This document shows, in pieces, positions 8,319 to 64,000 of a stretch of 64,000 bases of DNA. The position numbers and the translations under genes were made by a program. The notes beneath the pieces are model-generated. The model was given only the letters and a program-made list of their open reading frames with translations, was not told the DNA's origin and did not search any database. Source of the stretch: Neocallimastix lanati (nom. inval.) (Eukaryota > Neocallimastigomycota > Neocallimastigomycetes > Neocallimastigales > Neocallimastigaceae); the NCBI GenBank assembly GCA_016946835.1, contig JACVTC010000084.1, positions 233,501-297,500 on the forward strand, in the 5' to 3' direction. Each line of letters begins with the position of its first letter. Position 1 is the first letter of the stretch.

Positions 8319-8387
8319 AATATTTAAAAATTTATATTTTTATGGTGAACTTCAAGGGACGAAGTTCAATCTAAAGCACGGAGGAAT

Positions 8388-8950
8388 TGATAAATAATGA
8401 AATTTATAAATATAAATTTCATATTATATTAAAAAAAATATATATATATATATAATTAATATCACGGTACAAATTTTATAAAGTTTAATAATAAACAATT
8501 AATAAATTAATAAAAATAAAAATATATTAAATAATATTTTAATAATAAAAAAAATAAAATAAACAATAAACAGAAATAATAATTTTTAAAATATTATTAA
8601 TTGTAAATACTTATAACATGTAAACAAATTTTAAAATGTATAATTTACTAAATTAATATAAATAGTTCTTAATTTTATTTATTTTAATAATCAGGTTTTT
8701 ATATAGTTTTTACTCATTTTAATCAAAAACTAAATATTAATAATAATATTAAATAATTAAAATAATAATTTAAATAATAAAATTAAAAGATGTATATAAA
8801 ATAATTTATAAAATAAATAAAATATATATTAATAAAACATATTTTTAAAATCTTAATCACAAAAACAACTTTTTCTAAATTTAATCATTGATATTGGTTA
8901 TGTCACTTTCTGAGCCTATTCAGAATTAAGATATAAACCATAAAATATCA
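8388..8950 (+). repeat. 3' LTR of element B
   Basis: Nearly identical to 6364-6927. It is preceded by a purine-rich stretch near 8374-8387 and followed by GTAG, the target duplication. Confidence 0.85.
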
Positions 8951-8954
8951 GTAG

Positions 8955-10375
8955 ATTGTAATAATTTCTACAAAAATATAGAAATTATTATCTCTATTAA
9001 TATTAATGTTAATTAGAACAAAATAAAATAATAATTTAAATACTTATCTTAAGAGAGAATTTATTATAAGAAACTATAATAAACTTAGAAACACAGAGTG
9101 TGAAAGGGAAAATAAAAAATATGTTTTATGATAATTTATTAAAATGTTTTATTATTAAAATATTTTATATTTTATAAATTTTATTTTAAAAATTATTATA
9201 AATTTTTTTTTTATTTAAAATTTAAATATTTTATTAAAAAAATTATAGATATTTATTATTATTATTATTATTACAATTTCTTATAATAATAACTCTTGAT
9301 TTTCGAAAGGAAACTCAAGAGTCCTTTTTATACTTTAAAATAAAGAAATAAAGAAATTTCTAATCTTAACAAAATACTTTCCAGGAAAAGATTAGTAGAA
9401 AAACCTGGAAAGATTTCAACCAATAATCTATACTTATTGGTTATCGTATTATTAAGTAAAACCATTTTTATGGAAAAACCTTAATAACCGATGTTCTAAA
9501 TTACGTAAGTTAAACGGTTAAATTAATTCACACTTTAACAATTTAACCGAATTAATTTACGAATAAAATAAAATTAAGAAAAATACAGAATTAAATACAG
9601 AAATGAATATAGAAATACATACAAAATACATACAAAATAAATACAAAATAAATTTAGTAAAATTTAATACATAATTTAATAAAATTTGCTACATTATTAA
9701 TAATTAATAATTTATAAAATTAAGTAAACTTAATAATTATTTTATAATTATTAAGGATTAAGAAATATAGACTTATAACAATAAGTCTAATTTCTTACAT
9801 AGATTGTAAGAAATTACTTATAAAATTAATTATAAATAATTTCTTAACTACAAATTAACATTAATTATTACTAATTAACATTAATTTGAGAAAATAAAAT
9901 TAAATATAATTAAATAAATATAAAATAATATAAATAAATAATTATACTTAACTTAAATATAAGATATAGTTTATTATAGAAAATTTATAATAAACAATAA
10001 CACAAAAGGAATAAAAGACACAAATATTTATAAAATATGTTTATTAAAAAGGGTTTTGTTAATTAATTATTTTATTTGAATTATTATTTATTATAAAAAT
10101 TCTAAAATAATAACTCTTGATTTCTCGAAGAGAACTCAAGAGAATCAAATATATATAAATTAATAATTAAATATTATTGGTTAAAACAAATACAATAATT
10201 TAATGTATTAAATTAATGTATTAAATAAGAAAGATAGATAAATTTTATAATAAATTTATCTAAATTTCTTACATAGATTAAACATAGTTGTAAAAATAAA
10301 AAACAAAAAAAAAAAAAAAATTTGAAGAGTATCAAGTAACCTAACAGAAGACTTCAGGGGACGAAGTCTAATCTC
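8955..10375. other. Non-coding interior of element A
   Basis: A/T-rich sequence with no ORF of note. Two hairpins contain the motif AACTCTTGATT...CTCAAGAG (near 9288-9330 and 10110-10142). The same kind of hairpin occurs in LTR family H (near 18770 and 30180), so this stretch probably holds decayed LTR sequence. A less A/T-rich patch at 10322-10375 resembles the 3' leader of element B, sharing GGGACGAAGT. Confidence 0.4.
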
Positions 10376-17900: not shown

Positions 17901-19073
17901 TGTGTAAGAAATAATAATTATTTATTAATAAATAATTAATATTTTTTAGTCTATCACGAATACTATTAGATCAATTGAATTTTAATTTAGTTATTGACAA
18001 AAAATTATTTTAATTCGATTTTAATTATAAAAATAAATATTAGAAACATTAAATAATATATTAACTATTAATTAAATGTATATTGAAATGTGAATAACTG
18101 AAATTGAGATTTCAATTCAGTTATAATTTCAACATAGTCTTTATAATTATTGATAATAATTATAAATTTATTTAAATTATAATTAATTCATACATTGAGA
18201 TATTATTATCAAATTTATTATAATTATATTTATTCATACACTTGAATAATATTAGAAATTTTATTTAAATAATTATTATATGTACACTTATTAATATTAT
18301 TAATTTTATTTAGTTATTCATTTAATTATCAAGTTAATGTAAACATTAGTTTTATTTATTTTTTACATTGTACATTTAAAAGAACAATTAATAAGTTTCT
18401 GTATTTTTTATAATTCTGTATTCTAGTTTAAAGATAGTTTTATTTTAATAAGTTTAGATTAGATTTTAAAAATAATATTTAGAAAAATAGAATAATTTAG
18501 ATCATTCCAGTTATTATTGATTTTTCCTTTTTTTATTTGATGATCTAAATTAAAATTTAGAAAATCGATATATTAAGGTTTTATCCAAATATAAAATAAT
18601 ATATTTGGTTTTACTTAATATATACGATGATCGATATGAATAGAATATCGATCAAAAAACTTATCTAGTTTTTTCTTCTAATCTTTTTCTAGATAAGATA
18701 TTTTTTAAGATTAGAAAACCCTTTTTATTTAACCTTATTTCCATAAAAAAATATAAATAAGGCTCTTGATTTCCCTTTAAGAAATCAAAAGTTATTATTA
18801 TAAAAATATAGTTATAATAGTAGCAATCTTATATTTTTAACTTTAATAAATTAATAAAATATTTTATTCAAGAAACATATTTTTTAAATCAAATTTATCC
18901 AAATATTCCATCTTTTACTTTTGTGTTATTATTATAATTAATTTTATAATAAACTCAACAAAGGTATAATTTTATTTTATTTTTTTTATTTTATTTTCCT
19001 CAACTTAATGAATTAGTCGTTAAGTTGAAGTTAATAATCATATTAAATAATAGCAATTAGTATGATTATTACA
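17901..19073. repeat. Solo LTR-like block, family H copy 1
   Basis: It starts TGTGTAAGAAATAATAATT and ends GATTATTACA. Copy 2 is 29510-30485, and a further relative occupies about 35900-36331. A hairpin around CTTGATTTCC...AAATCAAAAG near 18770 and a repeat of CTAATC/GATTAG motifs are shared by all copies. Part of family J is embedded near 17950-18050. Confidence 0.6.
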
Positions 19074-28714: not shown

Positions 28715-28718
28715 TTTG

Positions 28719-29505
28719 TAATACAGAATGAATAAATAATACTAATTGTGCTAGAATAATATAAATTATTCTAACCTTAGATTATTCTATTCTATATAAT
28801 TGGAACTTTCCAATATTCTTCAAATATTACTAAATAAGAATCTTAAGTTAATAAATCAACAATCAACTTATAATTCCTTTTTGAATTATCGATCCGATTT
28901 CATTATATTATATTGAAATCTTTAGCTAATAATATTGTCCTTGCCCACTTAATATATTAATATTATATTTCTTTTGTAATATGTTATATTGAAAATAATC
29001 AAATCTATTTAATTAGTTATTAAAATTTTCGTTATCAATTTAAATTTATTTTTAATTACTAAATTTAACTAAACCACAATTAAAATATTCTGTATAATCT
29101 CCTTATTTTTATTTTATATATATTAATATTAAACTATTATTAAATAATTGATAATTCAATAATATAAAACTAATATTTATAACAATAATATTATTAACCA
29201 ATATAATAATTCAATTTCAATTTAAATGTTTTATTTATTAAATTAATTAGTAATTAGTTTATTAAGAAATAGTTAAGCTTTACAAATTTTAATTTGATAA
29301 AAAAATATAAATACATGTAATTTTTAGTAAAATAAAATATAATCAATAACTTTCTTTTTATTAAATAAATAATTATATTATTATTATTTTTCTTTTATAA
29401 ATTTAAATAAATAAATATTGATTTTAAAACAAAATTATTTTTATTGTAATTCTATTATTTGTGTTAATTATTATTATATTTCCCAAAACTATATGAACCA
29501 TACCA
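28719..29505. repeat. Solo LTR-like block, family D copy 2
   Basis: Very similar to 180-967. It is flanked by CATTT on both sides (28713-28717 and 29504-29508), as copy 1 is by CATATG. Confidence 0.65.
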
Positions 29506-29509
29506 TTTA

Positions 29510-30485
29510 TGTTAGAAATAATAATTATTTATTAATAAATAATTAAAATTTCTTAGTCTTTATAATTATTAATAATAATTATAAATTTATTTAAATTAAA
29601 ACTAATTCATACATTGGGATACTATTATCAAATTATTATAATTATAATTATTCATACACTTAAATAATATTAGAAAAATTATTTAAATAATTATTATATG
29701 TACACTTATTAATATTATTAATTTTATTTGGTCATTCATTTAATTATCAAGTTAATGTAAACATTAGTTTTATTTATTTTTTACATTGTACATTTAAAAG
29801 AGCAATTAATAAGTTTCTGTATTCTTTATAATTCTACATTTTAGTTTAAGGATAGTTATACGTTAATAAGTTTAGATTAGATTTTAAAAAATGATATTTA
29901 GAAAAATAGATTAATTTAGATCATTCCGGTTATTTTGATTTTTCCTTTTATTTGATAATCTAAATTAAAATTTAGAAAATCGATATATTAAGGTTTTATC
30001 CAAATATAAAATAATATATTTGGTTTTACTTAATATATACGATGATCGATATGAATAGAATATCGATCAAAACTTATCTAGTTTTTTCTTCTAATCTTTT
30101 TCAAGATAAGATATTTTTTAAGATTAGAAAACCTTTTTTTATTTAACCTTATTTCCAAAAAAAAATATAAATAAGGCTCTTGATTTCCCTTTAAGAAATC
30201 AAGAGTTATTATTATAAAAAACATAGTTATAATAATAACAATTTTATATTTTTAACTTTAATAAATTAATAAAATATTTTATTCAAAAAACATATTTTTA
30301 AAATCAAATTTATACAAATAATTCTTCTTTTGCTTTTCGAGTTATTATTATAATTAATTTTATAATAAACTCTATAGGTAAAAGATTTATTTTATTTTAT
30401 TCTCTATTTTCTCAACTTAATGAATTAGTCGTTAAGTTGTAGTTAATAATTCTGTTTTGAGTTAGTTCTTAATAGAATTATTACA
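29510..30485. repeat. Solo LTR-like block, family H copy 2
   Basis: It starts TGTTAGAAATAATAATT and ends GAATTATTACA, matching 17901-19073 without the embedded family J piece. It is flanked by TTTA and TTTG. Confidence 0.65.
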
Positions 30486-51300: not shown

Positions 51301-52481
51301 TTCGTTACCATAATTTATGCTAATTGTTTTTTTGAATTAATAAGATTAAAAATAATAAGAAAAAAATTTTTTTTAATGATAGACAACAAAAAAATTTTTT
51401 TTTTTATTACAAATTTTAATATAATAAAAAAAAAAGTTTAAATTTGAATTAAATCATTTAAATTAATAAATGAATAAAATATATTACAATTGAATGAAAA
51501 TTTTAGTTTAATTCAATTCCAATAATTATATAAAAATATATAAAAATATATAAATAAATAAATAAATAAATAAACTTATTTAATTAAATTGATTTATAAA
51601 TAATAAATAATAAAATGTAAATCATAAATAATAAAATGTAAATAATAAATAATAAGAATTAGATAATAAATATTAAAATGTAAATAATAAATAATAAAAT
51701 GTAAATAATAAATAATAAAATGTAAATCATAAATAATTAGAATGAGATAATAAATAATAAATATTAAATCATAAATAATAAATTAATCATCATTAATATA
51801 AAAATTAACGTAATAACTAATAAAAATAAATAATAAATAAAATTTTTATAATATTATCCATTAAATTATCAAATATATACTAATATATAGAAAATTAAAA
51901 TATTAATAAAAATTTTTTTAATCAACAATAAATCATCCGTTTAATGTAATTATTATTTAACATTAAAAAAAAGTATAAAAAGAAAGAAAATAATCCTTAT
52001 TTTTTATAATAGTTTTTTTATTCTAAATAAAATAATTAAATAAAAGTTTTTTTTTTTAAAAGAATAAATAATAAAGGCTTCATAATATATATAATAAAAT
52101 TAATTCAAAATTGAATTTTTTATTTTTAAAAAATTTTTTATCCTATTAATATTTATACAATTGTTCCTATTATTCGTTTATTGAATACTTTTTTTAAATT
52201 ACAAAAGAAATACTTTTTTATTTTAGCAAAGTTTAATAAATAATATTTAATTATTTTATTTTATGTATATATATAATAACATTTTACGTGTATAAGAATT
52301 TTTATGCAATTTTATAAATAAATTCACTTAATAAAAAGGAGTTTATAATAATAATAATAAAAAGTAAATACAGATATAATTTTAATTTAAATAATAATAT
52401 ATTAAAAAAATATTGATAATAATAATAATAAATAATATTAGTAAGTAATAATTAAAATAATAATAATACAAAATAATAAAA
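48336..52481. other. A/T-rich region upstream of nrdD
   Basis: No gene. It includes a tandem of ATCAAAACTAATATTAAT-type units at 49690-49870, a tandem of AAATAATAAAATGTAAAT units at 51600-51780, and the palindrome ATTAATCGATTAATCGATTA near 48650. The last few hundred bases must hold the nrdD promoter and leader. TATA-like strings are too common to single one out. Confidence 0.55.
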
Positions 52482-54647
52482 ATGGCTTCACAAATTGATC
52501 ACATTAATGATCCAGTTAATAAATTTGTTCAAGATAAAAAAATAAAAGAAATAGAAAAGCAATTAGATAAAAACTTATCTATTAACGAAGACGACTTTTC
52601 TGAATCTGAAAATACTGAAGTTTCTGAAAATACTGAAGTTTCTCAAAATACTATTGATACTGATGTTACTCATACTTCGGATGCTACTGAAATTGTTCAA
52701 GAAGAAAGTATTTATCCAGATATGACTATGGCTGGGGTATCTCTTTCCATTGATGAAGATTTTTATGAACTTTTACAACATGATCCAACTGGTCAAAATC
52801 CAGATGAAATTTGGAAAAAATTACTTAAATTAGAAGGTTTAGGTTTAGAAGTTTTGGATATTAATTCAAATTTTGTGGATGTTATGAATTTCGGTTCTGA
52901 TCACAGTATTGATGCTAATGCCAATGGTGCTATCGGTATCTACAAATTCCATTCTAAGGAAATTCGTGAAATTTGTGCTCCTTATCAAAAATTGGCTAAT
53001 GTTGCTCAATTCTTTAGTCATGTTAAAAGTATTTATGGTGGTGAGAAGACCGTGGATATGTTCCGTGCTTGGATTAATGGTGATATTTACTTACATGATT
53101 CTTGTTATCTTTTCGTTCCTTACTGTTATGCTATGTCGGTTGAACCAGTGGTCACAAACGGTATTACTTTTAATCGTCAACTTCGTTCCCTTCCACCAAA
53201 ACATGCTAGAAGTTTCATTGGTCAAGTAGCCGAAACTGTAACTAGTATGTCTCAAGAATTAGCTGGTGCTATTGCTGTCGCTGATCTTTTCGTTTACTAT
53301 GCTTACTACCTTCATTTAGAAGGTATTGAAACCGTTGAAGGTAATGCTGAAAAAATCGAAGAAATTGAAAATGATTATCAAAGTCTTGTCCATATCTTAA
53401 ATTGTGCTCATCGTTTCTCTTGTCAAAGTGCCTTCACCAACATTTCTATTTTTGATCGTCCAAGTCTTCAACACTTATTTGGTACCGTTTACTATCCAGA
53501 TGGCACTCAACCTAACCTTGCCCTTGTAATGGAATTACAAAAGATTTTCTGTAATTGGTTTGCTCGTGGTCAATCCACTGAATCCTTCCTTCCTTACCCA
53601 TTCCCTGTTGTTACCTTAAACTTGAAGGTGAATGATGATAAGGAAGTTATGGATCAAGAAACTTTTGAATATTTCTGTGAAATTAATATGAATGGTCTTT
53701 TCAATTTCTTTGTCAGTGATTCCAATAAATTGGCCTCTTGTTGTCGTGTCATTAATAATTTGAATGTTCATATGAGTGTCTTTGGTGAAGGAGGTGTTAA
53801 TATTGGTAGTTTAAGAATTGTCACTCTTAACTTGGCTAGAATGGGTCACTATGCCGCTAAGGAAGAGGATAAGGATAAGGCTATTGATGTCTTCTTTGAA
53901 CATTTAGATGCTCAATTAGAAAAAGCTTACCATATGTTGTTAGCTCACCGTGAATTCATCGTCAAGCAAATGAAGCGTGGTGCTTGTCCTTTCTTTAGTA
54001 AGGAATTAGGTTACATGTTTTTAGAAAGATTCTTCTTAACCTTTGGTATTAATGGTCTCTATGAAGGTTTACTTGAAATGGGTTATGATATGTTAAAGGA
54101 GGATGGTCTTGAACTCTCACGTCGTATTTTAAAGCATATTACCGATTATGCTAATGCTAAATGTGATGTTAAGAATAAGATTTTATTCAATGTAGAACAG
54201 GTTCCAGGAGAATCACTTGCTATTAAGCATGCTAAGAAGGATAAGTTAGTTAATGATATGAATTATGATATTTATGCTAATCAATTTGTACCTCTTTGGT
54301 CTGATATTTCATTAGAGGAAAGAATAAAAATTGATGGTGATTTAGCTAAATATATGAGTGGTGGTTGTATTACTCACATTAATTTAGCTGATCGTATGCA
54401 ATCTCCAAAACAAATGCAAGCAGTTGTAAAATATGCCATTAAGAATCATTGTGAACACTTTGCCATCAACTATTCCTATAATTCATGTGCTCAAGGACAT
54501 GTAACAATAAGCGGCAATGCCTCGATTTGTCCAATTTGTTCTGATAAAATTGTTGATCATATTACTCGTATTGTTGGTTACTTTACTTCTGTCAGTGCTT
54601 GGAGTCCAGGTAGACGTGAAGAATTTAAGCGTCGTCGTTTTCTTTAA
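52482..54647 (+). CDS. nrdD: Anaerobic (class III) ribonucleoside-triphosphate reductase
   Basis: 721 codons, intact and intron-free. It reduces ribonucleoside triphosphates to dNTPs using a glycyl radical, and is active only without oxygen after activation by the radical-SAM protein NrdG. The radical site is RIVGY with Gly699, 22 residues from the end as in the family. The finger-loop thiyl Cys lies in SCCR (419-422). Other visible motifs are INGDIYLHD with Cys215 (YCYAMS), and CQSAFTNIS (314-322). A zinc-site-like region has Cys669, His673 and CPIC (683-686), where the first pair reads C-x3-H. The first ~80 residues are Ser/Thr/Glu-rich low complexity with a tandem SENTEV; no ATP-cone is seen. 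The start fits AAAATGG. Codons favour GGT, CGT and CAA, typical of a well-expressed gene. No nrdG lies nearby. Bacterial ancestry by transfer is likely but not shown here. Confidence 0.96.
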   Translation: MASQIDHINDPVNKFVQDKKIKEIEKQLDKNLSINEDDFSESENTEVSENTEVSQNTIDTDVTHTSDATEIVQEESIYPDMTMAGVSLSIDEDFYELLQHDPTGQNPDEIWKKLLKLEGLGLEVLDINSNFVDVMNFGSDHSIDANANGAIGIYKFHSKEIREICAPYQKLANVAQFFSHVKSIYGGEKTVDMFRAWINGDIYLHDSCYLFVPYCYAMSVEPVVTNGITFNRQLRSLPPKHARSFIGQVAETVTSMSQELAGAIAVADLFVYYAYYLHLEGIETVEGNAEKIEEIENDYQSLVHILNCAHRFSCQSAFTNISIFDRPSLQHLFGTVYYPDGTQPNLALVMELQKIFCNWFARGQSTESFLPYPFPVVTLNLKVNDDKEVMDQETFEYFCEINMNGLFNFFVSDSNKLASCCRVINNLNVHMSVFGEGGVNIGSLRIVTLNLARMGHYAAKEEDKDKAIDVFFEHLDAQLEKAYHMLLAHREFIVKQMKRGACPFFSKELGYMFLERFFLTFGINGLYEGLLEMGYDMLKEDGLELSRRILKHITDYANAKCDVKNKILFNVEQVPGESLAIKHAKKDKLVNDMNYDIYANQFVPLWSDISLEERIKIDGDLAKYMSGGCITHINLADRMQSPKQMQAVVKYAIKNHCEHFAINYSYNSCAQGHVTISGNASICPICSDKIVDHITRIVGYFTSVSAWSPGRREEFKRRRFL

Positions 54648-55465: not shown

Positions 55466-55902
55466 TTGTTGAAATTTATAAATGAATTGAAATATCAAAT
55501 TTCAGTTATTTACATTTATTTGACTGGGCGTTCAATATATTCAAAAATTAAAGTTAATGATGGGGAACAAAGACAATTAGTTGACAATATTTTTAAACAA
55601 AGTTCAACATCGTCGACTGATCCGTATTTTGTGGGGATTGCGGAGTTTCTAACAAACGTAATACCATTAATTTGTCGATCTTTTTTTAGATTGATAATGA
55701 AATTGGTATTCTGTTGAATCTATTGAATCTACCGTTGCTAAGAGTGTCGACGTCGAAATGAGAAGGCATTGGATTTTCACCTCCTGGTGAAAGATCTGAT
55801 ACAGATTCGATCGATAACACTAATACTGAAATTATTACTCGCAATAATGGACGTTGTGTTATCATCGATAAATGGGAAAAGTTAGAAAACTATTGCTTCT
55901 AA
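55466..55902 (+). pseudogene. Unidentified protein remnant, array copy 1
   Basis: The first of three related degraded reading frames. The conserved part begins near 55525 and reads SIYSKIKVNDGEQRQLVDN, then FKQSSTSSTDPYFVGIAEFL. Coding sense then appears in other frames: STVAKSVDVEMRRHW, and finally a C-terminus ending DKWEKLENYCF with TAA at 55900-55902. A GTAATACC...TTTTTTTAG stretch (55660-55691) looks like a short intron, which would explain one break, but another frame change near 55775 remains. The upstream ~60 bp differ from copies 2 and 3. I do not recognise the family. Confidence 0.55.
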
Positions 55903-56208
55903 CGTATTTTTTTATAATTTTATAATTATATAATATTTCATTTTATGTATTTTATTTTTTATTTTTCATTTAAATCATGTAATTTTATTATTATTATTAT
56001 TATTAATTAAATAAAGTTATTCTCTTCTATATTAATTACTATTTTTAATTATTGAAATTAATTATATAATTATATAATTAAATATATTTTAATTATATTA
56101 AATAATTTAAACATATCGATATTGTTATTATCATAATATTTTATTAATATTTATATTACTATATTATTAATATGTTATAATCAAATACTATAAGGTAACT
56201 TACCAAGT

Positions 56209-56240
56209 ATAAAAGAAAGATGTAAATATCTTTCTTTTAT
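56209..56240 (+). promoter_or_regulatory. TATA-like hairpin, array copy 1
   Basis: ATAAAAGAAAGAT, 6-nt loop, ATCTTTCTTTTAT: a perfect 13-bp stem. The same TATAAAAG-plus-complement design occurs in LTR blocks (near 1526, 17713, 32720 and 38190), so it is probably an LTR promoter remnant. Confidence 0.5.
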
Positions 56241-56738
56241 GGTTTTTGTAAGGATATTTTAAAATTACCTTAATAATAATATTTTATAGATATTTCATTA
56301 TTAAATAAAAAAGAAATTTTTTTAAAATCAATTAATAATAATATTTTATTTTATAGATATTTCATTATTAAATAAAAAAGAAAATTTTTAAAATCAATTA
56401 ATAATAATATTTTATTTTATAGATATTTCATTATTAAATAAAAAAGAAATTTTTTTAAAATCAAACTAATTTAATAATTTTAATTATTAAAATTAATTAT
56501 AAATAAATTCTTATTTAACCAAATTATTTAAATATATTTACTATTGCTATTATATATGTATATAGCAATATTACTATATAGACATTTTGACCTTGCAAAT
56601 TTTTTTTTTTTTTTTTTTTTTAATAATATATATTATTTTAATTTAAACATAAATCATATTAAAACCTTAACACGTGATATAAATAATAATAGTAAATAAT
56701 AATGATTAAAATCAATAATTTAAAAAAAACATAAAGAA

Positions 56739-56810
56739 AGCAGCGTAGCGCAGTGGAAGCGTGGTGGGCTCATAACCCACAGGTCGTATGATCGAAACAT
56801 ACCGCTGCTA
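56739..56810 (+). tRNA. Initiator tRNA-Met (CAT), copy 1
   Basis: 72-nt intron-less cloverleaf. The acceptor stem AGCAGCG pairs with CGCTGCT, with discriminator A. Anticodon loop CTCATAA gives CAU. Initiator hallmarks are an A1:U72 pair, three G:C pairs next to the anticodon loop (GGG/CCC), and ATCGAAA in the T loop in place of TTC. The CCA end is not encoded, as usual in eukaryotes. It carries Met to the P site at translation start. Internal A and B boxes are present (TAGCGCAGTGG, GGTCG...ATCGAAAC). All three copies in the window are identical. Confidence 0.97.
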
Positions 56811-56821
56811 AATTAACTATA

Positions 56822-56831
56822 TTTTTTTTTT
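56822..56831 (+). terminator. Pol III terminator, tRNA copy 1
   Basis: A run of ten T residues 12 nt after the tRNA 3' end. Confidence 0.85.
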
Positions 56832-56956
56832 AAGATTTATTTATTTAATTTACTTTTTTTATTTTTAATTTTTAAAAAAACTAAAACTAAAAAAATAACA
56901 CTAACACTAACACTAACACAAACAATAACAATAACAATACCAATACCAATAACAAT

Positions 56957-57439
56957 AAAAATAAAAATAAAAATAAAAATAAAAATAAAAATAAAAATAA
57001 AAATAAAAATAAAAATAAAAATAAAAATAAAAATAAAAATAAAAATAAAAATAAAAATAAAAATAAAAATAAAAATAAAAATAAAAATAAAAATAAAAAT
57101 AAAAATAAAAATAAAAATAAAAATAAAAATAAAAATAAAAATAAAAATAAAAATAAAAATAAAAATAAAAATAAAAATAAAAATAAAAATAAAAATAAAA
57201 ATAAAAATAAAAATAAAAATAAAAATAAAAATAAAAATAAAAATAAAAATAAAAATAAAAATAAAAATAAAAATAAAAATAAAAATAAAAATAAAAATAA
57301 AAATAAAAATAAAAATAAAAATAAAAATAAAAATAAAAATAAAAATAAAAATAAAAATAAAAATAAAAATAAAAATAAAAATAAAAATAAAAATAAAAAT
57401 AAAAATAACAATAACAATAACAATAACAATAAAAATAAA

Positions 57440-57470
<31 letters not shown>

Positions 57471-57630
57471 TAATAAAAATAAAAATAAAAATAAAAATAA
57501 AAATAAAAATAAAAATAACAATAACAATAACAATAACAATAACAATAACAATAACAATAACAATAACAATAACAATAACAATAACAATAACAATAACAAT
57601 AACAATAACAATAACAATAACAATAACAAT
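56957..57630. repeat. AAAAAT and AACAAT hexanucleotide arrays, copy 1
   Basis: About 75 uninterrupted AAAAAT units (56957-57406), a few AACAAT, a second imperfect AAAAAT block, then about 19 AACAAT units (57517-57630). It begins about 125 bp after the tRNA terminator. The long minus-strand frames of Phe/Ile/Leu/Tyr dipeptides here are artefacts of the repeat. Confidence 0.95.
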
Positions 57631-57887
57631 AAAAATATAAATATAAATAAAAATAAAAATAAAAATAAAAATAAAAATAGAAATATGATAGTGAAAATAA
57701 TAAAAATAATAGTATTATTAGTAATAATGTAGTTAATAGATCAATTAGTTTTAATCGTGTTAATATTAGTAGTTTTTTTTGAATAATGAATGTGTAAATA
57801 TATATGTGATGTGGTAACCGATTATATAATTTTCTTGTTGGTGGAAGGGATGCAGACATAATAGATTTAAATTATAAAAAGGAATAA

Positions 57888-58151
57888 ATGAATGGGATAT
57901 TTTTGTTTAAGAACCAAATCATTTCTGGTGATTATTCAAAAACGCCATTCTTGGTGCGATCTGCGGCTCTCTTTACAGAAATTATGCCTCGGGCTAGTGT
58001 TCGGCAAGGGTTACTATTCCGAAAGTATAAGCGCAAACTAACCAGGAGCATCAACGCTGAAAATGAAGTAAGAAAGGCTAGCAGGGCCAATGCCTCTGAA
58101 GGAGAAGACCATATTTTCTTTCAGATAGACAATTCAAACCCTAATCCATAA
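57888..58151 (+). CDS. Conserved 87-codon ORF of the array, copy 1
   Basis: Starts ATGAATGG after a TATA-like ATTATAAAAAGG. The protein has a short N-terminal hydrophobic stretch, a basic middle (LLFRKYKRKLTRS) and an acidic end (EGEDHIFF). No family is recognised. It is far less A/T-rich than anything around it, and its codons (CGG, CGA, AGG, GCG) differ from those of nrdD. Copies 2 and 3 are identical to each other. Copy 1 differs from them by four replacement and two silent changes, which does not argue for protein constraint. A T-run (58178-58192) follows 26 nt after the stop, preceded by GGTTCG, so a Pol III-made RNA is a real alternative. Confidence 0.45.
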   Translation: MNGIFLFKNQIISGDYSKTPFLVRSAALFTEIMPRASVRQGLLFRKYKRKLTRSINAENEVRKASRANASEGEDHIFFQIDNSNPNP

Positions 58152-58455
58152 GGAGGTGAGGTTCGTTGCATATGAACTTTTTTTTTTTTTTTGAATTTAT
58201 TTATTCACTTATTTTTGATTATTACTTTTTATTTCACGTTACTTTTTCATTTATTATTATGTTCAAATTGGACAATTAATAATTATTTATTTTATTAATT
58301 CTGTGTTTTTTTTTTTTTTTTTTATTTTTTTTTTTTTTTTTATTTTTTTATTAAAATTAAAAGTATTCATGAATTTTATATAAGAATAAATAAATAGAGA
58401 TTAAAGTTCGCAATAATTGCTGCTATAAAAAAAAAAAAAATTTTTTTTTTTTGAA

Positions 58456-58943
58456 GTTTGCAATGATAGTTGAACAAAAATCCTTGAATGTTTCTTTAGA
58501 TTCAGAAAAGGATTATGATAATAATATTTATTATTTTATATTGAGTGCTCTTCTTGGCGGGCATTCAATATATGAAAAAATTAAAGTTAATGATAGGGAA
58601 CAAAGATAATTAGTTAACAATATTTTTAAACAAAGTTCAACATCGTCGACTGTTCCGTATTTTGTGGGAATTGCTGAGTTTCTAACAAACGTAATACCAT
58701 TAATTTGTCGATATTTGTCGATCTTTTTTAGATATATGATGAAATTGGTATTCCGTTGAATTTATTGATCTACCGTTGCTAAGAGCGTCGACGTCGAAAT
58801 GAGAAGGCATTGTATTTTCACCTCCAGGTGAAAGATCTGATACAGATTCGTTTGGTAACACTAATACTGAAATTATTACTCACAATAATGGACGTGGTGT
58901 TATCATCGATGAATGGGAAAAGTTAGAAAACTATTGCTTCTAA
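58456..58943 (+). pseudogene. Unidentified protein remnant, array copy 2
   Basis: Same gene as 55466-55902 and 61236-61809. The first ~65 bp of coding present in copy 3 are replaced by an A-run/T-run (58428-58452). The open part reads IVEQKSLNVSLDSEKDYDNN and SIYEKIKVND, then meets TAA where the other copies have CAA (AGACAATTA). Downstream sections are again out of frame. It ends DEWEKLENYCF, TAA at 58941-58943. Confidence 0.55.
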
Positions 58944-59255
58944 CGTATTTTTTTATAATTTTATAATTATATAATATTTCATTTCATGTATTTTATTTTT
59001 TATTTTTCATTTTTCATTTAAATCATGTAATTTTATTATTATTATTATTATTAATTAAATAAAGTTATTCTCTTCTATATTAATTAATATTTTTAATTAT
59101 TGAAATTAATTATATAATTATATAATTAAATATATTTTAGTTATATTAAATAATTTAAACATATCGATATTGCTATTATCCTAATATTTTATTAATTTTA
59201 TATTACTATATTATTAATATGTTATAATCAAATACTATAAGGTAACTTACCAAAT

Positions 59256-59287
59256 ATAAAAGAAAGATGTAAATATCTTTCTTTTAT
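59256..59287 (+). promoter_or_regulatory. TATA-like hairpin, array copy 2
   Basis: Identical 13-bp stem and 6-nt loop to 56209-56240. Confidence 0.5.
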
Positions 59288-59658
59288 GGTTTTTGTAAGG
59301 ATATTTTAAAATTACCTTAATAATAATATTTTATAGATATTTCATTATTAAATAAAATAGAAATTTTTTAAAATCTATTAATAATTATATTTTATTTTAT
59401 AGATATTTCATTATTAAATAAAAAAGAAAATTTTTAAAATCAATTAATAATAATATTTTATAGATATTTCATTATTAAATAAAAAAAAAATTTTTTTAAA
59501 ATCAAACTAATTTAATAATTTTAAATATTAAAATTAATTATAAATATAATTTTATTTAACCAAATTATTTAAATATATTTACTATTACTATTATATATAT
59601 CAATATAGCAATATTATTATATAGACATCTCGACCTTGAAATTTAGCATTTCGACCTT

Positions 59659-59709
<51 letters not shown>

Positions 59710-59822
59710 ATATATATTATTTTAATTTAAACATAAATCATATAAAAATCTTAACACGTGATATAAATAATAATAGTAAATAATAATGATTATAATCAAT
59801 AATTCAATAAAAGTATAAAGAA

Positions 59823-59894
59823 AGCAGCGTAGCGCAGTGGAAGCGTGGTGGGCTCATAACCCACAGGTCGTATGATCGAAACATACCGCTGCTA
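59823..59894 (+). tRNA. Initiator tRNA-Met (CAT), copy 2
   Basis: Identical in sequence to the copy at 56739, with the same initiator hallmarks. Upstream, a poly(T) run of about 40 bases (59664-59705) replaces the shorter run of copy 1. Confidence 0.97.
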
Positions 59895-59905
59895 AATGAA
59901 CTATA

Positions 59906-59913
59906 TTTTTTTT
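59906..59913 (+). terminator. Pol III terminator, tRNA copy 2
   Basis: Eight T residues, 12 nt after the tRNA end. Confidence 0.85.
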
Positions 59914-60039
59914 AAGATTTATTTATTTAATTTACTTTTTTTTATTTTTAATTTATAAAAAAACTAAAACTAAAAAAATAACACTAACACTAACACAAAC
60001 AATAACAATAATAATAACAATAGCAATAACAATAACAAT

Positions 60040-60477
60040 AAAAATAAAAATAAAAATAAAAATAAAAATAAAAATAAAAATAAAAATAAAAATAAAAATA
60101 AAAATAAAAATAAAAATAAAAATAAAAATAAAAATAAAAATAAAAATAAAAATAAAAATAAAAATAAAAATAAAAATAAAAATAAAAATAAAAATAAAAA
60201 TAAAAATAAAAATAAAAATAAAAATAAAAATAAAAATAAAAATAAAAATAAAAATAAAAATAAAAATAAAAATAAAAATAAAAATAAAAATAAAAATAAA
60301 AATAAAAATAAAAATAAAAATAAAAATAAAAATAAAAATAAAAATAAAAATAAAAATAAAAATAAAAATAAAAATAAAAATAAAAATAAAAATAAAAATA
60401 AAAATAAAAATAAAAATAAAAATAAAAATAAAAATAAAAATAAAAATAAAAATAAAAATAAAAATAAAAATAAAAAT
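60040..60477. repeat. AAAAAT hexanucleotide array, copy 2
   Basis: About 73 uninterrupted units, preceded by a few AACAAT units. It lacks the distal AACAAT block of copy 1. Confidence 0.95.
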
Positions 60478-60686
60478 AGAAATAAATATTAATATTAGTG
60501 ATAGTGAAAATAATAGTATTATTAGTAATAATGTAGTTAATAGATCAATTAGTTTTAATCGCGTTAATATTAGTAGTTTTTTTTAATAATGAATGTGTAA
60601 ATATATATGTGATGTGGTAACCGATTATATAATTTTCTGGTGGAAGGGATGCAGACATAATAGATTTAAATTATAAAAAGGAATAA

Positions 60687-60950
60687 ATGAATGGGATATT
60701 TTTGTTTAAGAACCAAATCATTTCTAGTGATTATTCAAAAACGCCATTCTTAGTGCGATTTGCGGCTCTCTTTACAGAAATTATGTCTCGGGCTAGTGTT
60801 CGGCAAGGGTTACTATTCCGAAAGTATAAGCGCAAACTAACCAGGAGCATCAACGCTGAAAATGAAGTAAGAAAGGCTAGCAGGGCCAATGCCTCTGAAG
60901 GAGAAGACCATATTTTCTTTCAGATAGACAATTCAAATCTTAATCCATAA
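60687..60950 (+). CDS. Conserved 87-codon ORF of the array, copy 2
   Basis: Identical to copy 3 (63605) and differs from copy 1 at a few positions (Ser for Gly14, Phe for Ser26, Ser for Pro34, Leu near the end). The same upstream TATA-like motif and downstream T-run are present. It is unrecognised, and may be a short protein or an RNA gene. Confidence 0.45.
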   Translation: MNGIFLFKNQIISSDYSKTPFLVRFAALFTEIMSRASVRQGLLFRKYKRKLTRSINAENEVRKASRANASEGEDHIFFQIDNSNLNP

Positions 60951-61103
60951 GGAGGTGAGGTTCGTTGCATATGAACTTTTTTTTTTTTTTTGAATTTATT
61001 TATTCACTTATTTTTGATTATTACTTTTTATTTCACGTTACTTTTTCATTTATTATTATGTTCAAATTGGACAATTAATAATTATTTATTTTATTAATTC
61101 TGT

Positions 61104-61142
<39 letters not shown>

Positions 61143-61235
61143 TTTTTTATTAAAATTAAAAGTATTCATGAATTTTATATAAGAATAAATAAATAGAGAT
61201 TAAAGTTCGCAATAATTGCTGCTATAAAAAAAAAT

Positions 61236-61809
61236 ATGGTTTTTGCCTGTAAAGAATTGGAAAATTACAGAAATAAATCTTTAGTATTACTAGATGATCT
61301 CTTTTTGAAGTTTGCAATGATAGTTGAACAAAAATCCTTGAATGTTTCTTTAGATTCAGAAAAGGATTATGATAATAATATTTATTATTTTATATTGAGT
61401 GCTTTTCTTGGAGGGCATTCAATATATATATGTAAAAATTAAAGTTAATGATAGGGAACAAAGACAATTAGTTAACAATATTTTTAAACAAAGTTCAACA
61501 TCGTCGACTGATCCGTATTTTGTATTTTGTGGGAATTGCTGAGTTTCTAACAAACGTAATACCATTAATTTGTCGATATTTGTCGATCTTTTTTAAATTG
61601 ATGATGAAATTGGTATTCCGTTGAATTTATTGGATCTACTGTGGCTAAGAGCGTCGACGTCGAAATGATAAGGCATTGTATTTTCACCTCCTGGTGAAAG
61701 ATCTGATACAGATTCGTTTGATAACACTAATACTGAAATTATTACTCACAATAATGGACGTGGTGTTATCATCGATGAATGGGAAAAGTTAGAAAACTAT
61801 TGCTTCTAA
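61236..61809 (+). pseudogene. Unidentified protein remnant, array copy 3 (longest)
   Basis: This copy keeps the fullest 5' part. From ATG 61236 it reads MVFACKELENYRNKSLVLLD, then IVEQKSLNVSLDSEKDYDNN and a hydrophobic YYFILSAFLGGHSIY. A small insertion (TATATATGTAAAAATT) then shifts the frame and ends the ORF at 61442. The rest (KVND...IFKQSSTSSTDPY, an extra TATTTTGT duplication, then DEWEKLENYCF) follows in broken frames to TAA 61807-61809. It could be an exon set of a real multi-exon gene elsewhere. As written here it cannot be translated whole. Confidence 0.55.
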
Positions 61810-62121
61810 CGTATTTTTTTATAATTTTATAATTATATAATATTTCATTTCATGTATTTTATTTTTTATTTTTTATTTTTCATTTAAATCATGTAATTTT
61901 ATTATTATTATTATTATTAATTAAATAAAGTTATTCTCTTCTATATTAATTAATATTTTTAATTATTGAAATTAATTATATAATTATATAATTAAATATA
62001 TTTTAGTTATATTAAATAATTTAAACATATCGATATTGCTATTATCCTAATATTTTATTAATTTTATATTACTATATTATTAATATGTTATAATCAAATA
62101 CTATAAGGTAACTTACAAAGT

Positions 62122-62153
62122 ATAAAAGAAAGATGTAAATATCTTTCTTTTAT
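62122..62153 (+). promoter_or_regulatory. TATA-like hairpin, array copy 3
   Basis: Identical to 56209-56240. Confidence 0.5.
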
Positions 62154-62525
62154 GGTTTTTGTAAGGATATTTTAAAATTACCTTAATAATAATATTTTAT
62201 AGATATTTCATTATTAAATAAAATAGAAATTTTTTAAAATCAATTAATAATTATATTTTATTTTATAGATATTTCATTATTAAATAAAAAAGAAAATTTT
62301 TAAAATCAATTAATAATAATATTTTATAGATATTTCATTATTAAATAAAAAAAAAATTTTTTTAAAATCAAACTAATTTAATAATTTTAAATATTAAAAT
62401 TAATTATAAATATAATTTTATTTAACCAAATTATTTAAATATATTTACTATTACTATTATATATATCAATATAGCAATATTATTATATAGACATCTCGAC
62501 CTTGAAATTTAGCATTTCGACCTTG

Positions 62526-62569
<44 letters not shown>

Positions 62570-62682
62570 ATATATATTATTTTAATTTAAACATAAATCA
62601 TATAAAAATCTTAACACGTGATATAAATAATAATAGTAAATAATAATGATTATAATCAATAATTCAATAAAAGTATAAAGAA

Positions 62683-62754
62683 AGCAGCGTAGCGCAGTGG
62701 AAGCGTGGTGGGCTCATAACCCACAGGTCGTATGATCGAAACATACCGCTGCTA
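62683..62754 (+). tRNA. Initiator tRNA-Met (CAT), copy 3
   Basis: Identical to the copies at 56739 and 59823. The flanks match copy 2 closely, for example the ~34-base poly(T) at 62531-62565. Confidence 0.97.
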
Positions 62755-62765
62755 AATGAACTATA

Positions 62766-62773
62766 TTTTTTTT
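62766..62773 (+). terminator. Pol III terminator, tRNA copy 3
   Basis: Eight T residues, 12 nt after the tRNA end. Confidence 0.85.
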
Positions 62774-62905
62774 AAGATTTATTTATTTAATTTACTTTTT
62801 TTTATTTTTAATTTATAAAAAAACTAAAACTAAAAAAATAACACTAACACTAACACTAACACAAACAATAACAATAACAATAACAATAACAATAACAATA
62901 ACAAT

Positions 62906-62937
62906 AAAAATAAAAATAAAATAAAAATAAAAATAAA

Positions 62938-62968
<31 letters not shown>

Positions 62969-63395
62969 TAAAAATAAAAATAAAAATAAAAATAAAAATA
63001 AAAATAAAAATAAAAATAAAAATAAAAATAAAAATAAAAATAAAAATAAAAATAAAAATAAAAATAAAAATAAAAATAAAAATAAAAATAAAAATAAAAA
63101 TAAAAATAAAAATAAAAATAAAAATAAAAATAAAAATAAAAATAAAAATAAAAATAAAAATAAAAATAAAAATAAAAATAAAAATAAAAATAAAAATAAA
63201 AATAAAAATAAAAATAAAAATAAAAATAAAAATAAAAATAAAAATAAAAATAAAAATAAAAATAAAAATAAAAATAAAAATAAAAATAAAAATAAAAATA
63301 AAAATAAAAATAAAAATAAAAATAAAAATAAAAATAAAAATAAAAATAAAAATAAAAATAAAAATAAAAATAAAAATAAAAATAAAAATAAAAAT
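62906..63395. repeat. AAAAAT hexanucleotide array, copy 3
   Basis: About 490 bp of AAAAAT with two AAAAT interruptions near the start, preceded by several AACAAT units. Confidence 0.95.
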
Positions 63396-63604
63396 AGAAA
63401 TAAATATTAATATTAGTGATAGTGAAAATAATAGTATTATTAGTAATAATGTAGTTAATAGATCAATTAGTTTTAATCGCGTTAATATTAGTAGTTTTTT
63501 TTAATAATGAATGTGTAAATATATATGTGATGTGGTAACCGATTATATAATTTTCTGGTGGAAGGGATGCAGACATAATAGATTTAAATTATAAAAAGGA
63601 ATAA

Positions 63605-63868
63605 ATGAATGGGATATTTTTGTTTAAGAACCAAATCATTTCTAGTGATTATTCAAAAACGCCATTCTTAGTGCGATTTGCGGCTCTCTTTACAGAAATT
63701 ATGTCTCGGGCTAGTGTTCGGCAAGGGTTACTATTCCGAAAGTATAAGCGCAAACTAACCAGGAGCATCAACGCTGAAAATGAAGTAAGAAAGGCTAGCA
63801 GGGCCAATGCCTCTGAAGGAGAAGACCATATTTTCTTTCAGATAGACAATTCAAATCTTAATCCATAA
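63605..63868 (+). CDS. Conserved 87-codon ORF of the array, copy 3
   Basis: Identical in sequence to 60687-60950. The same TATA-like motif lies upstream and the T-run (63895-63908) downstream. The window ends 132 bp further on, within sequence that matches the region before the next pseudogene remnant. Confidence 0.45.
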   Translation: MNGIFLFKNQIISSDYSKTPFLVRFAALFTEIMSRASVRQGLLFRKYKRKLTRSINAENEVRKASRANASEGEDHIFFQIDNSNLNP

Positions 63869-64000
63869 GGAGGTGAGGTTCGTTGCATATGAACTTTTTT
63901 TTTTTTTTGAATTTATTTATTCACTTATTTTTGATTATTACTTTTTATTTCACGTTACTTTTTCATTTATTATTATGTTCAAATTGGACAATTAATAATT

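Follow-up and report, generated by a model that had tools for sequence, protein, structure and literature searches.

Retrotransposons of the Ty3/gypsy type that target genes transcribed by RNA polymerase III (Pol III) have been given for ascomycete yeasts and dictyostelids (PMC5911963). Ty3 of Saccharomyces cerevisiae inserts 1-4 bp upstream of the transcription start site (PMC5911963), and Tj1 of Schizosaccharomyces japonicus inserts 5-11 bp before the 5' end of the mature transfer RNA (tRNA), with a reported target duplication of 5 bp (PMC4600332). DGLT-A of Dictyostelium discoideum, also a Ty3/gypsy element, is placed, in either orientation, 13-33 bp ahead of the end of the mature tRNA (PMC5911963), and elsewhere at about 15 bp upstream (PMC5006619). 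Arrays of tRNA genes are known from Entamoeba, in which a tRNA gene and a short tandem repeat form a head-to-tail unit and nearly all tRNA genes of E. histolytica are so arrayed (PMC2652664). The present analysis concerns a stretch of 64,000 nucleotides of the anaerobic gut fungus Neocallimastix lanati (hereafter the window; positions 233,501 to 297,500 of contig JACVTC010000084.1, labelled C746), in which the gene for the initiator tRNA-Met (iMet) is repeated in tandem, and the long terminal repeat (LTR) elements found beside this and other tRNA genes of the 199-Mb assembly of 762 contigs. The iMet locus is tandemly duplicated, and LTR elements of several families are inserted at a near-fixed distance upstream of tRNA genes, a combination that very probably reflects the targeting of Pol III genes in the manner of Ty3, at a tRNA locus that had also been duplicated in tandem.

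Like Ty3 and Tj1, the elements described here have the Ty3/gypsy order of pol domains where it is known and lie upstream of several types of tRNA gene. Their target duplications are 4-5 bp, as against 5 bp in Tj1, and their distance to the mature 5' end is mostly 13-18 bp, as against 5-11 bp in Tj1 (PMC4600332). In spacing they are nearest to DGLT-A (PMC5006619), which has no surviving full-length copies in the compact genome of its amoeboid host, whereas LTRs that are 99.8-100% identical accompany the elements at three tRNA genes here (tRNA5, tRNA6 and a tRNA-Gly). Unlike the ascomycete yeasts that harbour Ty3 and Tj1, the present host is an anaerobic gut fungus with a large genome, in which at least 12 families share one target and elements are nested beside tRNA genes. 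AAAAAT tracts lie between the tRNA genes in the repeated unit, as short tandem repeats do in Entamoeba; unlike in Entamoeba, the arrays are short and broken, and the near-universal arraying of tRNA genes is not seen among the iMet genes and the B-boxes listed.

Three tRNA-Met(CAT) genes were identified in the window with ARAGORN and with the Rfam model RF00005 (61.8 bits each). They lie in direct repeats at steps of 3,084 and 2,860 bp and agree at 72 of 72 bases. Eukaryotic initiator tRNA-Met is distinguished by the A1-U72 pair, three G-C pairs in the anticodon stem and A54 and A60; the sequence and fold of the window tRNA, with its CAT anticodon, display all of these, and by these commonly quoted hallmarks it is an initiator tRNA-Met. 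Within each unit a dead gene is followed by an AT-rich spacer, then by the tRNA with a hexamer tract 3' of it, and finally by an 87-codon open reading frame (ORF) and a short tail. Unit 2 is 93-94% identical to unit 1 and 96% identical to unit 3 by BLAST, the substitutions between units 1 and 2 amount to 2-7% depending on the region, and the 100 bp of 5' flank differ at seven positions between units 1 and 2 and at none between units 2 and 3. A preliminary description of this DNA, made from the letters alone, had proposed a tandemly duplicated unit of about 2.9 kb with three identical iMet genes, an AAAAAT array, an 87-codon ORF and a dead gene, in which the tRNA stays identical, perhaps through selection or gene conversion, while the pseudogene and spacers drift, and the second and third copies, being nearly the same, are recent or homogenised. 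The tandem duplication, the recent or homogenised state of units 2 and 3 and a constraint on the tRNA are all supported. An assembly artefact is unlikely because units 1 and 2 differ by 2-7% and because two further units, beyond the window, carry different insertions.

The array continues past the right edge of the window. Unit 3 crosses that edge and ends at about C746:297,695, and the dead gene and spacer of unit 4 run to C746:298,937; the next tRNA gene (tRNA4) follows only at 318,027. The intervening DNA holds an LTR element, F4, which ends 14 bp before the tRNA, has LTRs about 85-91% alike and contains two further elements nested inside it. Unit 5 is parted from tRNA5 by a Ty3/gypsy element (A), in which no clear LTR pair was found, and by the element F5, whose LTRs are 99.8% alike, whose end lies 14 bp before the tRNA and which is bracketed by the 4-bp target duplication ACCA. 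The element F6 ends 13 bp before tRNA6, with LTRs 99.9% alike and the 4-bp duplication CCAA. tRNA5 and tRNA6 (loci L042-L043; C746:335040 and 342834) have the next 13 bases of 5' flank in common and are 95% identical over about 600 bp downstream; they look like duplicates, each later struck, by F5 and F6, at almost the same base, one base apart. Further along the contig, LTR ends precede tRNA8 and an iMet gene at 455 kb by 14 and 15 bp, and a 7.4-kb element, G, with identical LTRs and the 5-bp duplication TTTTG, ends 14 bp before a tRNA-Gly gene at 458 kb. Another LTR, X, is present in two copies 10.8 kb apart, one preceding F6 and one 0.8 kb before F5; the candidate reading of the two as a single element was set aside, as tRNA5 lies between them. 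X also ends 12 bp before the tRNA-Asn gene of L008, although unrelated DNA breaks up the body of this copy.

Aligned with units 4 and 5, the flanks of the window units remain homologous as far as -8 to -12, the point at which the LTR starts, and the window units are therefore empty sites. Comparable pairs of empty and filled sites are provided by the flank of L018 against L031 (homology to -17) and by the flanks of L025 against three places (-11 and -12). Some iMet genes that lack a supported LTR have in common a short motif, ATCAATAATT, about 17-28 bp upstream, as at 59795-59804 of the window and in L017, L018 and L023; this motif may belong to the promoter or may be what is left of an old LTR.

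The generality of the arrangement was examined in 32 distinct iMet genes with upstream sequence, the three window genes being counted as two, since units 2 and 3 share their flank. An automatic 18-mer test flagged 22 of the 32 on the upstream side, none of 32 on the downstream side and 3 of 32 when the search interval was shifted 100 bp upstream. Six of the 22 hits (L017, L026, two in L025 and the second genes of L034 and L037) were dropped as paralogous flanks or unsupported, and tRNA6 and L020, both missed by the composition filter, were added. An LTR end (...CA) was thus found at -4 to -18 before 18 of the 32 genes, in 17 of the 18 cases at -13 to -18. Strict support, namely at least 85% identity over at least 150 bp to another context, is available for 13 of the 18; the ends of L028 and L031 are 96% identical to each other before different iMet flanks, that of L033 draws on matches of 75-76%, and those of L027 and L029 on the terminal 18-mer alone. 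With BLAST at 88% over 150 bp, matches were obtained upstream of 20 of the 32 genes, comprising 13 LTR ends and seven shared flanks (two window genes, L018 twice, L025 twice and tRNA7).

Other tRNA genes are similarly placed. The automatic test flagged five of seven tRNA-Asn genes, to which L002 was added by BLAST, the single tRNA-Gly gene, and two of eight tRNA-Arg genes, one of which (L008) matched tRNA sequence, leaving the lone tRNA-Arg gene of L005. The F6 LTR stands before different tRNAs, at -13 of iMet and -16 of Asn, with 88% identity over 923 bp. When 28 junctions were clustered on their final 350 bp, 18 groups emerged, and a family was counted if it was supported from another locus or by a paired LTR. 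This yielded 12 LTR families at tRNA genes: F4, F5, F6, N, G and X, and the families of loci L020, L024/L032, L028/L031, L029/L035, L030 and L006/L034. L029 and L035 were merged by hand, as X appears inserted in the L029 copy; X itself is counted only because of its end before the L008 Asn gene, and the families of L005 (a 79% match) and L027 and unsupported singletons were left uncounted. LTR copies from families found beside tRNA genes at other places, in part within nested elements, also occur in the window away from its tRNA genes, at 178-942, 8387-8950, 9805-10273, 18135-19073, 28715-29479 and 29509-30485.

As regards the nature of the elements, TG...CA LTR pairs were read for F5, F6, G, N and a further element, H, and likewise for F4 from its ends. 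Reverse transcriptase, RNase H and integrase follow in the Ty3/gypsy order in F5, G, A and H, of which A occupies the site at unit 5, while H lies within F4 and has no tRNA beside it; the Ty3 capsid model was matched by G and H. F6 gave weak zinc-knuckle and protease matches and a partial RNase H match only, no known domain was matched in N, and no pol of its own was found in F4. A copia element in the window was considered as tRNA-targeting and rejected, as it lies in nested LTRs and the tRNA-adjacent LTR family there (about 18121-19073 and 29509-30485) is not assignable to it. Use of iMet as a retroelement primer was likewise rejected, the complement of the iMet 3' end with CCA (TGGTAGCAGCG) being absent from the 244 kb and 30 loci searched.

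A separate test was based on coordinates. The terminal 18-mer of F5 occurs 733 times in the genome (reversed control 0), and the B-box pattern GGTTCGANNCC falls 55-80 bp past an F5 end in 53 cases (reversed control 0). From coordinates alone on contigs C1 to C24, a same-strand B-box lies 65-70 bp past 8 of the 56 listed F5 ends, the chance expectation being about 0.00013 per end. All eight belong to the 39 ends that were not paired as inner ends; of the 17 inner ends, none has one. As the opposite LTR end shows a B-box in 1 of 52 cases, F5 mostly points one way among the ends listed. The pattern misses the iMet, Asn and Arg(TCT) genes, so that the counts for F5, and those for G given below, are lower bounds.

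Several results weigh against targeting, or limit its reach. The 32 iMet genes come from loci picked by similarity to the window gene and are a non-random sample, and 14 of them lack a supported LTR end. Controls on the downstream side are weak or give mixed results: the 18-mer filter let through only 3 downstream against 64 upstream windows, and without the composition filter the test flagged 30 of 32 genes upstream and 9 of 32 downstream and proves little alone. On the Asn genes it flagged seven of seven downstream, the match being the adjacent Arg gene. The strict BLAST search gave downstream matches at 6 of 32 genes, all six in the iMet cluster of C24 and due to shared flanks or simple repeats, and a relaxed search (72% over 100 bp), with 23 upstream and 28 downstream matches, is useless in AT-rich DNA. 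For 31 of the 39 non-inner F5 ends no such B-box lies in range, and family G shows one at 1 of 59 listed ends. A Ty3/gypsy pol was shown for only 2 of the 12 tRNA-abutting families (F5 and G), and the target duplication of F4 is imperfect. With the controls as weak as this, it is the contrast in the strict BLAST search, the paired LTRs together with their target duplications and the coordinate test that support an upstream-only placement.

These same points give some room to the view that the tandem duplication is a plain one and that retrotransposons are found near tRNA genes merely because insertions in gene-poor DNA survive. The duplication is certain, the region is repeat-rich, and both the iMet genes without a supported LTR end and the weak downstream controls would be in keeping with it. 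However, survival alone predicts neither the fixed spacing, nor its recurrence in at least 12 LTR families and before several tRNA types, nor the excess of F5 ends at 65-70 bp from a B-box over both chance and the opposite LTR end, and we consider this view quite unlikely. An array of the Entamoeba kind, with short tandem repeats between tRNA genes, is suggested by the tRNA and hexamer tract in tandem units, but only three units are uninterrupted, iMet genes are spread over 13 contigs, most of the 100 B-boxes listed for C1 to C24 stand at a distance from one another, and the unit includes dispersed-repeat DNA; such an interpretation is very unlikely. That retroelements carry and spread the iMet gene as cargo, as the adjoining of LTR and tRNA in many places might suggest, can hardly be entertained, since the target duplications enclose the element but not the tRNA, which contradicts it for the elements with duplications, and since one LTR family stands before different tRNAs, one tRNA stands behind different LTRs and the iMet 3' flanks differ among loci.

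Under the favoured explanation of targeting on a duplicated locus, an iMet segment with its hexamer tract and bits of dispersed repeats would have undergone head-to-tail duplication, most likely through unequal crossing over, which the hexamer tract might conceivably aid, and the tRNA copies would be kept identical by selection, perhaps with gene conversion in addition. The tRNA genes would serve as landing sites for several LTR families, mostly at 13-18 bp before the 5' end of the mature tRNA; this position would be near the expected Pol III start site. By analogy with Ty3 (PMC5911963), the integrase is most likely tethered to transcription factor IIIB. Units 4 and 5 would have been struck and driven apart from their tRNAs, and the three units of the window spared. 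The position of the tRNA outside the target duplications fits a low-cost landing site. A further step, that tRNA amplification and retrotransposon targeting drive each other in this lineage, is entertained only tentatively and seems rather unlikely: tandem copies would offer landing sites beyond the needs of the cell, and insertion, together with recombination at nested LTRs, would spread and multiply tRNA segments. If true, such coupling would help explain about 1,400 tRNA-type B-boxes above background and the many LTR families on one position.

The array is ordinary for this genome. The exact iMet 71-mer occurs 38 times on 13 contigs, eight of which have one exact copy each, and with up to three mismatches 50 genes were found (38, 8, 3 and 1 at 0, 1, 2 and 3 mismatches), of which C24 carries 14, and C555 and C746 carry 9 each. 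Other tandem pairs or triplets of iMet genes have steps of 434, 573-582 and 637 bp. Many iMet genes elsewhere have unrelated flanks, and the 3' flanks vary among loci; as these unlinked genes are identical as well, the constraint on the tRNA is genome-wide and does not depend on the array. The preliminary description had regarded an array of this tRNA linked to one long microsatellite as unusual; that the amplification is special here is not supported in view of these copies and short arrays. It had also named many unlinked iMet genes with the same flanks as a finding that would tell against it, and had suggested a genome-wide check for other initiator genes: unlinked copies and other initiator genes do exist, but the flanks are not the same. 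One diverged iMet gene, with three mismatches, lies on the reverse strand at C746:228840-228910, 4.6 kb left of the window, and about 30 places on C555 share the same top tRNA score.

The B-box pattern occurs 1,469 times genome-wide against 73 for its reversed form, and the genome probably holds well over a thousand tRNA-type genes, judging from this excess. In seven of eight loci (L001-L004, L006-L008) the tRNA-Asn(GTT) and tRNA-Arg(TCT) genes keep one order and are separated by 13-15 bp, and the pair may be made as one two-tRNA transcript. The family PF02013 includes fungal dockerins; all 150 scored candidates of 1,440 first-look candidates matched it in this genome, and none was found in 14 control genomes. 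Taken with the low G+C content and the anaerobic reductase gene of the window described below, these matches point to an anaerobic gut fungus (Neocallimastigomycota).

The remaining components of the unit (Table 1) are dispersed repeats. For a 346-bp piece with the ORF, all 40 scored candidates (of 1,499 at first look) matched, 35 of them outside C746 at 92-94%; for the dead gene, all 40 scored candidates matched (41 places listed, 902 at first look), 35 outside C746 at 88-90%. These figures refer to the candidates scored and are not copy numbers. The ORF is open in units 1-3 and has an early stop in a fourth copy outside the window. Four replacement and two silent changes separate units 1 and 2; all six are C/T or G/A differences in which unit 2 has T or A, a direction in line with the strong AT bias. 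The ORF had no Pfam or PDB match. Functional cargo was rejected for both components on account of the absent Pfam and PDB matches of the ORF, its four replacement to two silent changes, its stop elsewhere and the dispersed nature of both, and a place in a working unit is unlikely for either. A suspected resemblance of the dead gene to an RGS domain was unconfirmed: of two stop-free pieces searched, one gave a match below threshold to an unrelated family and one gave none. On another contig, at C335:13596-14143, a copy of the ORF repeat 93% identical to that of the window lies 142 bp 3' of an exact iMet gene. A long, open gene for an anaerobic ribonucleoside-triphosphate reductase (NRDD; 52467-54644, forward strand, E 9.9e-87) adjoins the array, and the G+C content per 2 kb across the window is 8-28%.

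Table 1. Features of the tandem iMet units, in window coordinates
Feature	Position	Strand	Basis or remark
Unit 1	55526..58447	+	Left edge is where homology to unit 2 begins; BLAST 93-94%
Dead gene, unit 1	55526..55904	+	Dispersed-repeat piece, frames broken
Putative empty insertion site, unit 1	56725..56730	+	About -14 to -9; homology stops at -12, -11
iMet copy 1	56739..56810	+	ARAGORN, Rfam RF00005, 61.8 bits
AAAAAT/AACAAT hexamer tract, unit 1	56890..57690	+	75 perfect AAAAAT copies, from 56957
87-codon ORF, unit 1	57888..58151	+	Dispersed-repeat piece
Unit 2	58448..61301	+	BLAST, mapped parts
Dead gene, unit 2	58448..58945	+	Repeat copy, frames broken
Putative empty insertion site, unit 2	59809..59814	+	Homology stops at -11, -8; junctions
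iMet copy 2	59823..59894	+	ARAGORN, Rfam, fold
AAAAAT tract, unit 2	59970..60495	+	73 perfect copies, from 60040
87-codon ORF, unit 2	60687..60950	+	Repeat copy
Unit 3	61302..64000	+	96.4% to unit 2 across 2,706 aligned columns
Dead gene, unit 3	61302..61811	+	Mapped copy
Putative empty insertion site, unit 3	62669..62674	+	100-bp 5' flank same as unit 2, and same outcome
iMet copy 3	62683..62754	+	ARAGORN, Rfam
AAAAAT tract, unit 3	62830..63413	+	75 perfect copies, from 62946
87-codon ORF, unit 3	63605..63868	+	Repeat copy

Pol III-targeted Ty3/gypsy elements are of a known kind. The results listed by searches of open-licence papers included neither this host lineage nor so many families at a single target, and among them no report of a Pol III-targeted LTR element turned up from anaerobic fungi or from other fungi of early-diverging lineages. 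In genomes of this kind, tandem copies of a tRNA gene may be commonplace and do not necessarily signal regulation of translation initiation. If the targeting proposed here is true, the strategy would be wider, or would have arisen more often, than has been catalogued, and many families would be able to use one landing position in a host genome that is large and repeat-rich rather than compact.

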